DNA of 64,000 nt from Pyrobaculum oguniense TE7. Its GTDB lineage: Archaea > Thermoproteota > Thermoprotei > Thermoproteales > Thermoproteaceae. A program made the translations under genes and the position numbers. The stretch's first letter is position 1; every line of letters starts with the position of its first letter. Below, in pieces: positions 7,845-46,274 of this stretch. Under the pieces are notes generated by a model. It did no database searches, had not been told where the DNA came from, and saw nothing but the letters and a program-made list of their open reading frames with translations. The DNA is taken from the NCBI GenBank assembly GCA_000247545.1, contig CP003316.1, positions 1,583,233-1,647,232 of the forward strand, in the 5' to 3' direction.

Positions 7845-7988
7845 ATGGCGATTGCCTCAGGGAGCCTGCCGGCGCCGGGGGTCTTAGCATTTATTTTACT
7901 TTGGGCAAACACCGCCTTGGACGGGAGTATAGGGGGCGCTGACATTGATGAGCGGAGTTATAGCATCCGTGCTGAGAATTCGTCCTAG
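7845..7988 (+). CDS. Possible small hydrophobic protein, 47 aa
   Basis: An ATG-initiated frame of 47 codons in the gap between fumC and vapC. It contains one hydrophobic segment (about residues 12-22). A TATA-like TTTAAAAC lies 26-29 nt upstream, so a leaderless transcript is possible. I recognise no family, and the frame could be chance. Confidence 0.2.
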   Translation: MAIASGSLPAPGVLAFILLWANTALDGSIGGADIDERSYSIRAENSS

Positions 7989-8045
7989 ACGGCGCGAAGA
8001 TCGCGCTCCCGCGCCGTCTGCTGTGGCGCTAAGTCGGCGTCGTCG

Positions 8046-8444
8046 CTAATTGCCGATCGCGTCTCTGGGCTCTAACCTCTTGACATCCGTTTTGTCGAAA
8101 TCCCTATCGAAGCTGACGATGGGGACGCCTAGTTTCTTGGCATAGTTATAGTGGAGGCCATCATCGAAGTCTAGGCCGACTCTTGTAGCGGCTCTCGCCG
8201 CCTCGATCTCGTCCCCCAAGTCGCTCTTCACGATCTCAAGCCCGCGCCAGGTAGCGATCTCGCTGAGGAAGATCTCCACGAGTTCCGGCTTAGCCAATAT
8301 GGCCGATACGCCATGCACAGCGAACTGCAAGACGTATCCCCTAACCTCTCCCGATTTGACCTTTTCCAAAAAGCGGTACGACTCAGCCCACCTCTGACGT
8401 CTGTAAAGCAACTCTAAGAAGACGTTGGCATCAATCAGGTACAT
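8046..8444 (-). CDS. vapC: VapC-type PIN-domain ribonuclease toxin
   Basis: A 132-residue PIN-domain protein: N-terminal MYLIDANVFLELL with the first catalytic Asp, a middle acidic residue region, and the C-terminal GLDFDDGLHYNYAKKLGVPIVSFDRDFD with paired acidic residues. These Mg2+-binding acids cleave RNA in VapC toxins. The ATG at 8444 lies inside the 3' end of the upstream antitoxin gene (14-nt overlap), the usual VapBC layout. Confidence in the fold is high; the RNA target is unknown. Confidence 0.9.
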   Translation of the reverse strand: MYLIDANVFLELLYRRQRWAESYRFLEKVKSGEVRGYVLQFAVHGVSAILAKPELVEIFLSEIATWRGLEIVKSDLGDEIEAARAATRVGLDFDDGLHYNYAKKLGVPIVSFDRDFDKTDVKRLEPRDAIGN

Positions 8445-41244: not shown

Positions 41245-41589
41245 TTAAAGCTTTATCTTGATGTCTACGAACCTCTTATACCACGTCTCGTATAGCTCTC
41301 TCGTCGCGACGTGTATTTCAAAAACGCCGGCGAAGCCCAGCCTTTTTTCCACATGTACTAATAGCTCTGCGATCTTCCCCAGAGAGCTCCCGTACTTGTC
41401 CGACACCACGAGGATGTCGACGTCGCTGTCAGGCCTCGCGGTGCCCTTGGCGAAGCTGCCAAAGAGGTAGACCTCGGCCTGCGGGTCGAGCTCCAGCACG
41501 GCCTCCTTGATCTTCGCCAAGTAGATAGAGAGGTTTGAGAGAACTTCCCGCCTCCTCAGCCAGTACTCTACGAATACGTCTCGAGGCAC
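41245..41589 (-). CDS. Minimal nucleotidyltransferase (MNT) antitoxin
   Basis: 114 residues with the Pol-beta-like nucleotidyltransferase motif GSFAKGTARPDSDVDILVV, giving the GS and D-x-D metal site. In HEPN/MNT modules this protein neutralises the HEPN RNase, in studied cases by AMP transfer. It overlaps the upstream HEPN gene by 22 nt. It is one of three such pairs in the window. Confidence 0.85.
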   Translation of the reverse strand: MPRDVFVEYWLRRREVLSNLSIYLAKIKEAVLELDPQAEVYLFGSFAKGTARPDSDVDILVVSDKYGSSLGKIAELLVHVEKRLGFAGVFEIHVATRELYETWYKRFVDIKIKL

Positions 41590-41951
41590 CTCCCCACCTC
41601 CATCAACTCTTCGACGAATGCCGAGGCCTTCTCCACGTCCCCGCTCCTAGCCCTAATTGGCAAGTACCGCGAGCTGATGTAGGCGTATTCAAGCAGGGCC
41701 ATTACGTCTCCCCACCTCTTGACAAGCTCGGCGAGGCGGCACACATCGCCGTATACGGCCAGGAGCCTATCTGCTAGATCCCTCAAATAGTGAGTTTTAG
41801 GGAAGTCGCCCACCTTCCTGTAGAGGAGGTACTTCATGTAGAGCTGGGCGCATTGTTCTAGGTTGAAAAGGGCGAGCTCTAGAAAACCCCTCTCTCTTGC
41901 GAACCTGGCCTGCTCCAAGAATTGAAGCGCCCTCTCTCTGAGAATATACAC
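41568..41951 (-). CDS. HEPN domain protein, partner of MNT
   Basis: 127-residue helical protein: RALQFLEQARFARERGFLELALFNLEQCAQLYMKYLL is the HEPN core, and KTHYLRDL the conserved His segment of this family. It is the likely RNase or RNA-binding partner of the overlapping MNT. The start is GTG at 41951, 26 nt from ATTTAAAT. That box is shared with the divergent LutB-like gene. Confidence 0.82.
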   Translation of the reverse strand: MYILRERALQFLEQARFARERGFLELALFNLEQCAQLYMKYLLYRKVGDFPKTHYLRDLADRLLAVYGDVCRLAELVKRWGDVMALLEYAYISSRYLPIRARSGDVEKASAFVEELMEVGRCLETYS

Positions 41952-43379: not shown

Positions 43380-43814
43380 CTACGTGGTGTCCGCCTTCAC
43401 GCTTCTGTATTTCAACGCAGCTAGAGAGGCGTTGAGCAGCAAGTAGAGAAAGGGTTGCTCCGGCGGAATCTCTCCCACGTAGAAGACGGCACGTAGTGCA
43501 AAGAGACCCAGCAAGACTGTGGAAGTAGCGATCACCGCCAACGCCGCTACAAAGCCCCTTTTTCCGCCCACCAGCTTAAACGCGGCGCTCCACGCCCCGT
43601 ATACCATGAGCTGTAAAATAAATGCGGCAAAGGGCGCTGATACGACAAACGCCCTCCAGGAGAGCTCTATAGACGCTTCAACCGCCACGGGCATCCCCTG
43701 GTGCGCGCTGCTCAGTATTTTTTCTGCGATAGCCCGCCGGTACTCTCCTTCCCTTGCCCCAATACTGGCGTACGTGAGCAACGCCACCACAACGGCGGAG
43801 GCGATGGACATCAT
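43380..43814 (-). CDS. Membrane protein at the end of the ABC operon
   Basis: 144 residues with about four hydrophobic helices (near 3-18, 45-75, 85-108 and 118-135). No family is recognised. It starts with ATG inside the ATPase stop (ATGA overlap), which ties it to the transporter. It may be a permease part or an immunity-like protein. Confidence 0.55.
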   Translation of the reverse strand: MMSIASAVVVALLTYASIGAREGEYRRAIAEKILSSAHQGMPVAVEASIELSWRAFVVSAPFAAFILQLMVYGAWSAAFKLVGGKRGFVAALAVIATSTVLLGLFALRAVFYVGEIPPEQPFLYLLLNASLAALKYRSVKADTT

Positions 43815-44398
43815 GGCCTAAAGTTGAGGAAGTCAAATTGCAAGTGGGCTTTTAAAGGAACGCGGGCGGTAACAACAAGGACAGAGCCGCCAATCCTTTT
43901 CAGAACTTCGCTGTGGATCTCGGCCGCTTTCTCCGGGGCGACACTGACGTACGGGTCGTCTAGAATGGCGAGCTTCACTTTTGGGATGACAGCCAGCGCC
44001 GCGGCGAGTTGCACAAGCCGCTTCATCCCCTGCGACATCTTACCCAGCAACAACTCCCCAGGCACACCGACGATCTCAAGCACATCCTCCGCTGAGTCAC
44101 CTGCGCCGTAAAACGAGGCAAGCGCTTCAACGTACTCCACCGCCTTTACCCTCTCAGGTACGTCAACAGTCTCCGGGAGGAAGAATATCTTATCCCTCGC
44201 CTTGACGTTGGGAATCCCATCTACGAAGACAGAGCCGCTGATCTGCCTCAACAACGTAGCCAAGGTCTTCGCCAGAGTGGACTTCCCCACACCGTTCGGG
44301 CCGTAAAACACCGCTGCCTCGCCAGAACCCAGCCTAAAGCTTATAGGCCGAGTCAACGGCTTGCCGTACCCAATAACAAGATCTCTAACCTCCAACAT
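43811..44398 (-). CDS. ABC transporter ATP-binding protein
   Basis: About 195 residues, a short ATPase. Walker A is GPNGVGKSTLAK, the signature region is LLGKMSQGMKRLVQLAAAL (SQGMK in place of LSGGQ), and Walker B is VKLAILDDPYVSV, where Asp replaces the usual catalytic Glu. The last point suggests weak or altered hydrolysis. ATG 44398 is preferred, an alternative GTG at 44416 being further inside the upstream gene. The closest type is export of drugs, peptides or antibiotics. Confidence 0.85.
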   Translation of the reverse strand: MLEVRDLVIGYGKPLTRPISFRLGSGEAAVFYGPNGVGKSTLAKTLATLLRQISGSVFVDGIPNVKARDKIFFLPETVDVPERVKAVEYVEALASFYGAGDSAEDVLEIVGVPGELLLGKMSQGMKRLVQLAAALAVIPKVKLAILDDPYVSVAPEKAAEIHSEVLKRIGGSVLVVTARVPLKAHLQFDFLNFRP

Positions 44399-44813
44399 AC
44401 CTAATCGCTGTGCCAACCACTGCTAAAAACATTATCGCGGCAAAGAGCGGAACATAAGGCCAGACTGCCAACGCGATGACAGCGGGCATAAGTAGCCCAG
44501 CTAACATGGGCAATCTAGGCCTCCGAGGCCTTGCCAGGGGCTCTAGCACAACATACCCGCCTTCCAACTTAAGAATTATATCGACACCCAAAAACACATA
44601 TTGTAGCGATTCGTGTATATAAACAAAGGCCAAAGGAGCTGTCCAAACTTCTAGCATTATGTTACAATATGTTTTGCAAGCTACGAATATGTAGCACAAA
44701 GAAATTGAAAAACCTCCAATAAGCATATAAAGAACAAAGATTTTAGTTTTCAAAAGTAGATTTGTAAGTACTTTAAGAAATAATAATATGTTATTAGCTG
44801 GTACTAAGTACAT
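44385..44813 (-). CDS. Membrane protein of the ABC operon
   Basis: 142 residues with two N-terminal helices, a short cytoplasmic-looking loop (LARPRRPRLP) and two C-terminal helices. Three Cys lie near the second helix (SLCYIFVACKTYC). No family is recognised. It overlaps its upstream neighbour by 20 nt and the ATPase by 14 nt. Confidence 0.5.
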   Translation of the reverse strand: MYLVPANNILLFLKVLTNLLLKTKIFVLYMLIGGFSISLCYIFVACKTYCNIMLEVWTAPLAFVYIHESLQYVFLGVDIILKLEGGYVVLEPLARPRRPRLPMLAGLLMPAVIALAVWPYVPLFAAIMFLAVVGTAIRYVGG

Positions 44814-45813
44814 GGCGTACTCTTTCCGACAACCACGGTAGTATCGGCATCAGCGCAGGAAGTAACAAAACCTCACTTCTCTCCAAGAGAGGGCCCACAA
44901 AAAATAGAGGAATCAGATATAGAACAGCTTCTTGACGGTTAAACAAGTTAGGCTTCAATCCCCAGACTAAGGCCACAACCAATATTAGGAGCGCTACGTG
45001 GGTAATCAGTTTACACGACGGGAATAGACAGACAGGCATAGATATCATGACAGTCCATAACAGTGTCAAGAAAGGCTTAATTGAAATTCTACGCCTTAAT
45101 ACGTAATAAGTTCTGAGATAACTATCTAAATACGCGTCTAATGCGGCTCCCACAACTAGACCAAGCGCGGCGATATGGAAAATTGCCAACACGACAGCTT
45201 GAAGCGTGGAGAGCGGCGGTGGAAAGGATGCCGAATATCCAGTAAGACCGTAAATTGTTACATTGGGCACATCCCGAAAGACGAGAAATGTGACTAAGAA
45301 GGCCGACGCAATGAGGAGCTTAATGGCTGGGTGGGGGGTAGACATACGTAGGCTCCCCCGGCCCATCGTGGTTACGATCCTCGCCCTAGACAACACTTCA
45401 AAAATCGCAACTACGGTTGCACCCACAGGCTCTGCGATACCTATCAACGCAAGCCCCGATGCTAGCAAAACCAGCGTCTTCCTAAGCGTCGCTAACAGTG
45501 GCGCAGCGAGGATGAGGGGGTTTAACCATATGGTTATCAGCACCACCGGCGCAGTAGCAGTGTATAGAATCAATGCTGTTAGCGCTAATCCCCGCGGGGA
45601 AAGTAACGCGGGCTGAGGCCACCTTACAAATCTTTCGGCATAACTCGATAGAAGGTAAACCGCTAAGAAATAGAAATAAGCAACCTCTCTAAGTACCGTT
45701 ACAAGTCCTAAATGAAGCGGATAAATTGCGGAGTAAAGGACAAAAGCAGAGGCTATTAAATAGGGAATGTTAGAAAAAATTAACTTTATATTTAATATAT
45801 AGAATTTTATCAT
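44794..45813 (-). CDS. Polytopic membrane protein, likely ABC permease
   Basis: 339 residues with about nine or ten hydrophobic helices and few charged loops. It is the largest membrane protein in the operon and the best candidate for the transmembrane pore. No sequence family recognised. ATG 45813 overlaps the stop of the Cys-rich gene (TAATG). Confidence 0.6.
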   Translation of the reverse strand: MIKFYILNIKLIFSNIPYLIASAFVLYSAIYPLHLGLVTVLREVAYFYFLAVYLLSSYAERFVRWPQPALLSPRGLALTALILYTATAPVVLITIWLNPLILAAPLLATLRKTLVLLASGLALIGIAEPVGATVVAIFEVLSRARIVTTMGRGSLRMSTPHPAIKLLIASAFLVTFLVFRDVPNVTIYGLTGYSASFPPPLSTLQAVVLAIFHIAALGLVVGAALDAYLDSYLRTYYVLRRRISIKPFLTLLWTVMISMPVCLFPSCKLITHVALLILVVALVWGLKPNLFNRQEAVLYLIPLFFVGPLLERSEVLLLPALMPILPWLSERVRHVLSTS

Positions 45814-46274
45814 TATCTAAATTGGCATAAGCAGTTGAGTTCAACAGTTAACTGTAGCCAACTTATCTTAAAACTACATGATTGCACGACAGCTCCGTGG
45901 TTTGCACATGTTGATGGGCATAGAATCCCACATGCCGCGGCCGTGCCTCCGAGTGACATTACGAGAGCCAATGCGAGCACAAGTACGAGGACTATCCATC
46001 CGTAGTATCTCCTCGGGACAACGAATGCTGAAAACAGTCCTAAAGCGAACGCGGTTGCAATCATGAGGGGGCCCGCCGAGACAATTTTACCCCCCGCCGA
46101 TGATTGAACAGAGACAATTTTACCCCCCGCCGATGATTGAACATAGACTAACGGATACCACGCGCTATTCGCATAGGGAGATGTCACAACTAACAGTATT
46201 AATAATATCAGCCATCCAACCACTACACCGTAAGCCACTTGCAATCCGATTCGCACGATATGCGGTCTTTGCAT
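45813..46274 (-). CDS. Cys-rich membrane protein with internal 11-residue duplication
   Basis: 153 residues. A first helix lies near residues 12-32; a loop then carries VQSSAGGKIVS twice in tandem, followed by two more helices and a C-terminal tail with six Cys (ACGILC, STC, SC, NCLC). It is the first gene of the five-gene operon. ATG 46274 is 25 nt from an AAAATAG box. No family is recognised. The Cys-rich tail outside the membrane may be a secreted or disulfide-bonded module and might be the transported or sensing component. Confidence 0.55.
   Translation of the reverse strand: MQRPHIVRIGLQVAYGVVVGWLILLILLVVTSPYANSAWYPLVYVQSSAGGKIVSVQSSAGGKIVSAGPLMIATAFALGLFSAFVVPRRYYGWIVLVLVLALALVMSLGGTAAACGILCPSTCANHGAVVQSCSFKISWLQLTVELNCLCQFR
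46078..46143. repeat. Perfect 33-bp tandem duplication in a coding region
   Basis: Two identical 33-bp units (46078-46110 and 46111-46143), each with a C6 tract, encode the doubled VQSSAGGKIVS in the Cys-rich protein. An exact, in-frame copy suggests a recent event. Confidence 0.9.

Follow-up and report, generated by a model that had tools for sequence, protein, structure and literature searches.

We analyzed a 64,000-nucleotide stretch of the genome of the hot-spring archaeon Pyrobaculum oguniense TE7 (hereafter the window) in which five genes, termed A, B, C, the ABC ATPase gene and D, follow one another in this order on the minus strand from position 46274 down to 43380 (Table 1). A sequence-only reading of this region had stated that all five genes overlap, and the coordinates agree. 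A and B share 1 nt (TAATG at 45813), B and C share 20 nt (44794-44813), and the ATPase gene and D share 4 nt (ATGA, 43811-43814). The overlap between C and the ATPase gene is 14 nt if the latter starts at the ATG at 44398, or 32 nt with the listed TTG start at 44416. The cassette is flanked by a gene for a LUD/ferredoxin protein at one end and by FeoB at the other. Elsewhere in the window (41245-41951, minus strand), an MNT nucleotidyltransferase gene and a HEPN gene form a pair in an arrangement typical of toxin-antitoxin systems.

Table 1. Features of the five-gene cassette, in window coordinates
Feature	Position	Strand	Description
Gene A	45813..46274	-	153 aa; three hydrophobic helices after a short N-terminus, then a six-Cys C-terminal tail; candidate precursor of a membrane-tethered Cys-rich peptide
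Cys-rich tail of A	45813..45938	-	About residues 113-153; predicted extracytoplasmic
Tandem duplication inside A	46078..46143	-	Perfect 33-nt repeat, VQSSAGGKIVS twice; strain-specific
Gene B	44794..45813	-	Polytopic membrane protein of 339 aa, presumed to pair with the ATPase as its transmembrane partner
Gene C	44385..44813	-	142 aa membrane protein; predicted M50/site-2 protease fold
ABC ATPase	43811..44398	-	195 aa; intact Walker A; catalytic Glu replaced by Asp; H-loop His absent
Gene D	43380..43814	-	144 aa membrane protein; in the Thermoproteaceae version only; candidate immunity or accessory subunit

Synteny was one of the checks suggested by the sequence-only reading, and the cassette does recur in Pyrobaculum and one Thermoproteus. 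The order A-B-C-ATPase-D is kept in genomes G029, G032 (Pyrobaculum sp. WP30), G034 (a Pyrobaculum metagenome-assembled genome) and G039 (Thermoproteus UBA157). It is also kept, with D absent, in G075, probably Thermofilum pendens. Because gene order is maintained in other genomes, we regard the cassette genes as real. Their distribution is patchy, and the cassette is carried by 4 of the 11 Pyrobaculum genomes. Together with G039, G075 and the related locus of G074, this makes seven genomes in total among 398 Thermoproteota sampled with a profile of C.

Protein A and its cysteine-rich tail

The six cysteines of the tail of A, recognized already in the sequence-only reading, occupy residues 115, 119, 123, 133, 148 and 150. 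At the Cys frequency of the window, the chance of finding at least six in 41 residues is about 7e-7. Homologues of A are present in G029, G032, G034, G039 and G075. Cys123, Cys148 and Cys150 are invariant in six relatives, and the C...CxC arrangement persists even at 22% identity. Outside G074, conservation of the tails is not clearly below that of the transmembrane part. Positive charges lie in the N-terminus and in the loop between TM2 and TM3, most clearly in G074 and G075, and the tail is therefore predicted to be extracytoplasmic. No leader-cleavage motif was found in A. One further match to the tail, in G001, was discarded because it sits in an unrelated open frame.

The perfect internal duplication noted previously is a tandem repeat of two 33-nt units (46078-46110 and 46111-46143). 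Since no other A protein contains it, the alignments indicate that it is a strain-level event private to P. oguniense TE7; it carries no functional weight, and we rejected its interpretation as a functional repeat.

The locus in G074 (L074 334-6618) contains six A-like genes and two C genes around a single B-like/C/ATPase set. In a profile-profile comparison, the A proteins of G074 match the A family of the window with a probability of 94.9 and an E value of 4e-8, and their profile matches A of G075 at 1.6e-7. In paralogues a and c, about 225 nt of the anchor are identical, and identity drops to 31-52% in the tail; paralogues c and e agree fully over their first 90 nt. Despite their divergence, the tails keep mainly their Cys frame. 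As judged from the sequences, this pattern is characteristic of recombination or conversion within the anchor, accompanied by divergent tails. The higher copy number of A in this genome could also stem from a role in structure or at the surface. About 3 kb past the cluster (L074 9507-10934) lies a gene for a PqqD-fused radical SAM/SPASM protein, of a kind that modifies peptides, which might be linked to the A genes.

The ABC ATPase and the membrane proteins B, C and D

The sequence-only reading had considered the ATPase alone to be recognizable. With respect to profile searches this stands, as the match of the ATPase to PF00005 (Pfam E = 3.7e-17, above the cut-off) is the sole credible Pfam or NCBIfam match of the cassette, but C has the predicted fold of an M50 protease (see below). 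The corresponding searches with A, B, C and D, which had been proposed as a check, returned nothing credible in Pfam, NCBIfam or PDB sequences, and for C this includes Pfam M50. Matches to BspA, Adeno_E3 and 3kkf look like products of low complexity or chance.

Walker A (GPNGVGK[ST]T) and the signature (SQGM) are present in the ATPase. The previously noted replacement of the catalytic Glu by Asp is borne out, with LDDP invariant in all relatives including those of G074 and G075. The signature had likewise been called unusual. It reads MSQGM in most members, SMGM in G075 and SQGQ in G074, but it is typical of the family, since 1SGW of Pyrococcus, the best match among solved structures (E = 5e-48), has LSQGT. 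A feature that the earlier reading missed is the absence of the H-loop His, which is replaced throughout by TAR, ASR or STK. In the alignment, 1SGW, an ABC ATPase of Pyrococcus furiosus, shares LDDP, the LSQG signature and the lack of this His. Lacking both the catalytic Glu and the H-loop His, the ATPase may hydrolyze ATP poorly. Members of this subfamily (E up to 1e-32) are confined to these loci or their remnants among 389 Thermoproteota genomes. More broadly, the ATPase resembles GldA, DrrA, CcmA and NosF, and it matches lantibiotic-protection ATPases more weakly. None of the papers covered by our search dealt with 1SGW, and the only match to PF0895 was the Pfam code PF08957.

B is presumably the membrane partner of the ATPase. 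It carries two conserved motifs, D-x-YLDSYLR and PVCLFxxC, the latter in Thermoproteaceae only, and its structure model is unreliable (pLDDT 52). In G074, the position of B is taken by a 416-aa protein that has the YLD motif in common with B in a loose alignment; the similarity between the two proteins is not significant, and the link is one of position. D is confined to Thermoproteaceae and matches no family.

The AlphaFold model of C is confident (pLDDT 91, pTM 0.81). Foldseek alone returned nothing significant for this model, with SpoIVFB ranked low. In VIA-align, SpoIVFB (Z 8.2, 117 residues, 3.3 A) and the site-2 protease of M. jannaschii (mjS2P; Z 7.7, 119 residues, 4.0 A) stand far above the next-best row (Z 4.8), although helical proteins and models can reach Z values of this size by chance. 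For this reason, independent evidence from the two C homologues of G074 matters. These contain HEVGH and HELGH, each followed by a downstream Asp. One was found with the initial C profile (E = 6e-4), and the gene of the other stands between those for the B-like protein and the ATPase. One of them weakly matches Pfam M50 (E = 0.006, below the cut-off) and RseP (E = 0.03), in both cases right at HExxH. C thus resembles SpoIVFB and mjS2P in its predicted fold and in the HExxH and Asp of its G074 homologues.

The C protein of the window differs from these proteases in being only 142 aa long and in its motif. It has HESLQ (HExxQ), in which Gln replaces the second His, and the column of the downstream Asp holds Thr (T135). 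A C profile compared by hhalign with the two M50 proteins of the P. oguniense genome gave no significant match. Because HExxQ and Thr replace two putative metal ligands, we consider C to be a protein with the site-2 protease (S2P) fold that is a predicted pseudoprotease in the window lineage. Conversely, H67, E68 and Q71 are invariant in six aligned window-type C proteins, including that of G075, as might be expected if C were an active metalloprotease with an unusual HExxQ site. This variant would be compatible with our preferred interpretation of the operon, but we regard it as distinctly improbable, given the Thr at the position of the Asp found in both HExxH homologues and the QE of the frameshifted G032 copy. 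We know of no zinc site of the HExxQ form. Weak matches to C in G033, G001 and other genomes were set aside; they fall in a frame that resembles a nucleotidyltransferase, in a membrane protein resembling TauE/SafE and in ordinary ABC-2 loci.

Divergence, decay and genomic setting

The A proteins of G032 and G034 are 58% identical, compared with 84% for B and 94% for the ATPase, which identifies A as the fast-evolving part of the cassette. At this low divergence, dN/dS is lowest for the ATPase (0.20), intermediate for B (0.49) and highest for A (0.71), and selection on the G032 cassette may be relaxed. Broken copies are frequent. The P. oguniense genome contains a second, frameshifted operon copy with pieces of B, C, the ATPase gene and D at about 935.4-937.4 kb (stretch L023 5400-7450), and G040 retains remnants of the ATPase gene and D. 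The ATPase gene of G029 (L020 about 7540) and C of G032 (L021 about 7920-8060) are frameshifted as well, where sequencing error is possible in each case. Such recurrent decay is as expected for a dispensable accessory trait. Plasmids yielded no match for B or for C of G074, and matches in viral contigs were limited to ABC ATPases of about 30% identity. In G034, A is immediately preceded on its upstream side by the 3' portion of another, diverged copy of D (L006 107-283), as if two operons had been arranged in tandem.

Several copies of the cassette are found beside CRISPR loci. The G029 operon adjoins a CRISPR array and cas4/cas1. The G075 cassette (L037 5907-11472) has a CRISPR array with type I-D cas10 on one side and an ordinary ABC-2 ATPase/permease pair on the other, and the frameshifted second copy in P. 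oguniense adjoins a CRISPR array and cas4. No array is present at the intact window locus or in the stretches examined from G032 and G074, and for this reason we rejected an accessory function in CRISPR immunity; shared residence in variable DNA is the more likely explanation. The RAMP/paREP inversion published for P. oguniense spans 932,090-955,719 (PMC3558965), and the frameshifted second copy falls within it. In G032, the operon lies between inverted repeats (L021 4566-10470), the longest of which is 251 nt at 98% identity. These settings fit variable, recombining DNA. The inverted repeats of G032 also hold opposite copies of a coiled-coil gene.

Proposed function and alternatives

The sequence-only reading had suggested an undescribed system for peptide export, sensing or immunity. 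Explanations of this class still account best for the data, and the conserved cassette, the modular Cys-rich tails, the S2P-fold partner and the private ATPase subfamily strengthen them. None of the membrane proteins shows clear homology to a transporter of known substrate, which would have spoken against such a system. Export of a processed peptide is conjectural, the more so because C of the window lacks metal ligands. Within this class we favor, with a probability of about one half, a dedicated system for the biogenesis or handling of a ribosomally made, membrane-tethered, Cys-rich peptide.

In such a system, A would be inserted with its N-terminus in and its tail out, where the tail cysteines could form disulfides or bind metal. 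B and the ATPase would constitute an ABC module whose target is A or the freed tail, whether in export, membrane extraction or self-protection. A C protein of the G074 type, with its metal-ligand motif, could cut A, while the window type might bind or position A without cutting. As the latter has lost two putative ligands and the window operon thus encodes no protease for release, the peptide would there be released by another protease, or not at all. D might serve as a Thermoproteaceae-specific accessory protein, perhaps in immunity. The likeliest role of the peptide would be antagonism between relatives, as for an archaeocin. We tentatively extend this proposal to a new class of archaeal conflict or signaling systems, in which polymorphic Cys-rich peptides on, or freed from, a conserved three-helix anchor would be diversified by recombination among paralogues that share the anchor. 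A private ABC module would handle them together with an S2P-fold protein, which in one lineage would have turned into a pseudoprotease; this broader possibility is less secure than the proposal for the operon itself.

The closest parallel in gene content is the YydFGHIJ epipeptide operon of Bacillus subtilis, which combines a small peptide gene with genes for a membrane protease-like protein, an ATPase and its membrane partner. The window operon has analogous parts, with C as a predicted pseudoprotease and B as a presumed permease. Release of the epipeptide is ascribed to a membrane protease, and self-protection of the producer had been postulated for the ABC transporter, although experiments showed YydIJ to be a minor resistance factor (PMC7026026). 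The window operon differs in that it encodes no radical SAM epimerase or other modification enzyme, A has three transmembrane helices and C has no HExxH; a radical SAM maturase is absent from the cassette. The two operons are likened by gene content, and the analogy concerns a working principle and not membership. A second parallel lies in the Cys-rich C-terminal part of A. Halocin C8 of haloarchaea is a Cys-rich C-terminal peptide of a larger precursor, which is secreted and is not a three-TM protein; the A proteins match no NCBIfam family credibly.

Alternatively, A might work in place, with its outer tail serving as a surface domain for thiol-redox chemistry or metal binding, and the ABC module supplying or removing a ligand such as a metal, cofactor or oxidant. 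The retention of mainly Cys positions in tails that end in CxC on a three-helix anchor would suit this role, as would the conserved Cys residues in B (PVCLFxxC) and C and the proximity of FeoB in the window. However, the neighbors vary, with CRISPR-cas instead of FeoB in G029 and G075, the Cys motifs of B and C are absent from G075, and six variable copies in one genome together with frequent decay fit a core metal function poorly. We therefore consider this explanation unlikely.

Quite unlikely, in our estimation, is a system in which the ABC module, C and D sense foreign membrane peptides or guard against them, with A as a sensor or decoy. An ATPase of the ABC-2/Drr/CcmA-like kind with some similarity to lantibiotic-protection ATPases, its residues suggestive of regulated, low turnover, and the CRISPR-cas neighborhoods in two lineages are consistent with such a role. 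The cassette includes no regulator or kinase, however, and the multiplication of A in G074 with varied tails resembles a set of precursors more than a single sensor. Finally, a divergent form of a known exporter, such as CcmAB for heme, a NosFY-type system or a generic ABC-2 drug exporter, is highly improbable. Membership of the ATPase in the group of CcmA, NosF, LanFEG and DrrAB speaks for it, but B matches by sequence neither CcmB, ABC2 nor any other Pfam, NCBIfam or PDB family, the CcmA/NosF matches (E about 1e-17) are far weaker than that to 1SGW, and CcmAB, NosFY and ABC-2 systems have no place for A, C and D.

To our knowledge, peptide antagonism and signaling are almost undescribed in hyperthermophilic Thermoproteota. 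The cassette itself looks undescribed in the literature that we covered, and an earlier account elsewhere is possible. If a peptide-handling system is indeed encoded, the cassette offers a candidate precursor, its handling machinery and a natural pair of putatively active and inactive proteases (G074 type and window type), which would open peptide release, self-protection and the function of a pseudo-S2P to direct tests. In addition, 1SGW, until now an orphan among solved structures, gains a family and a likely context.
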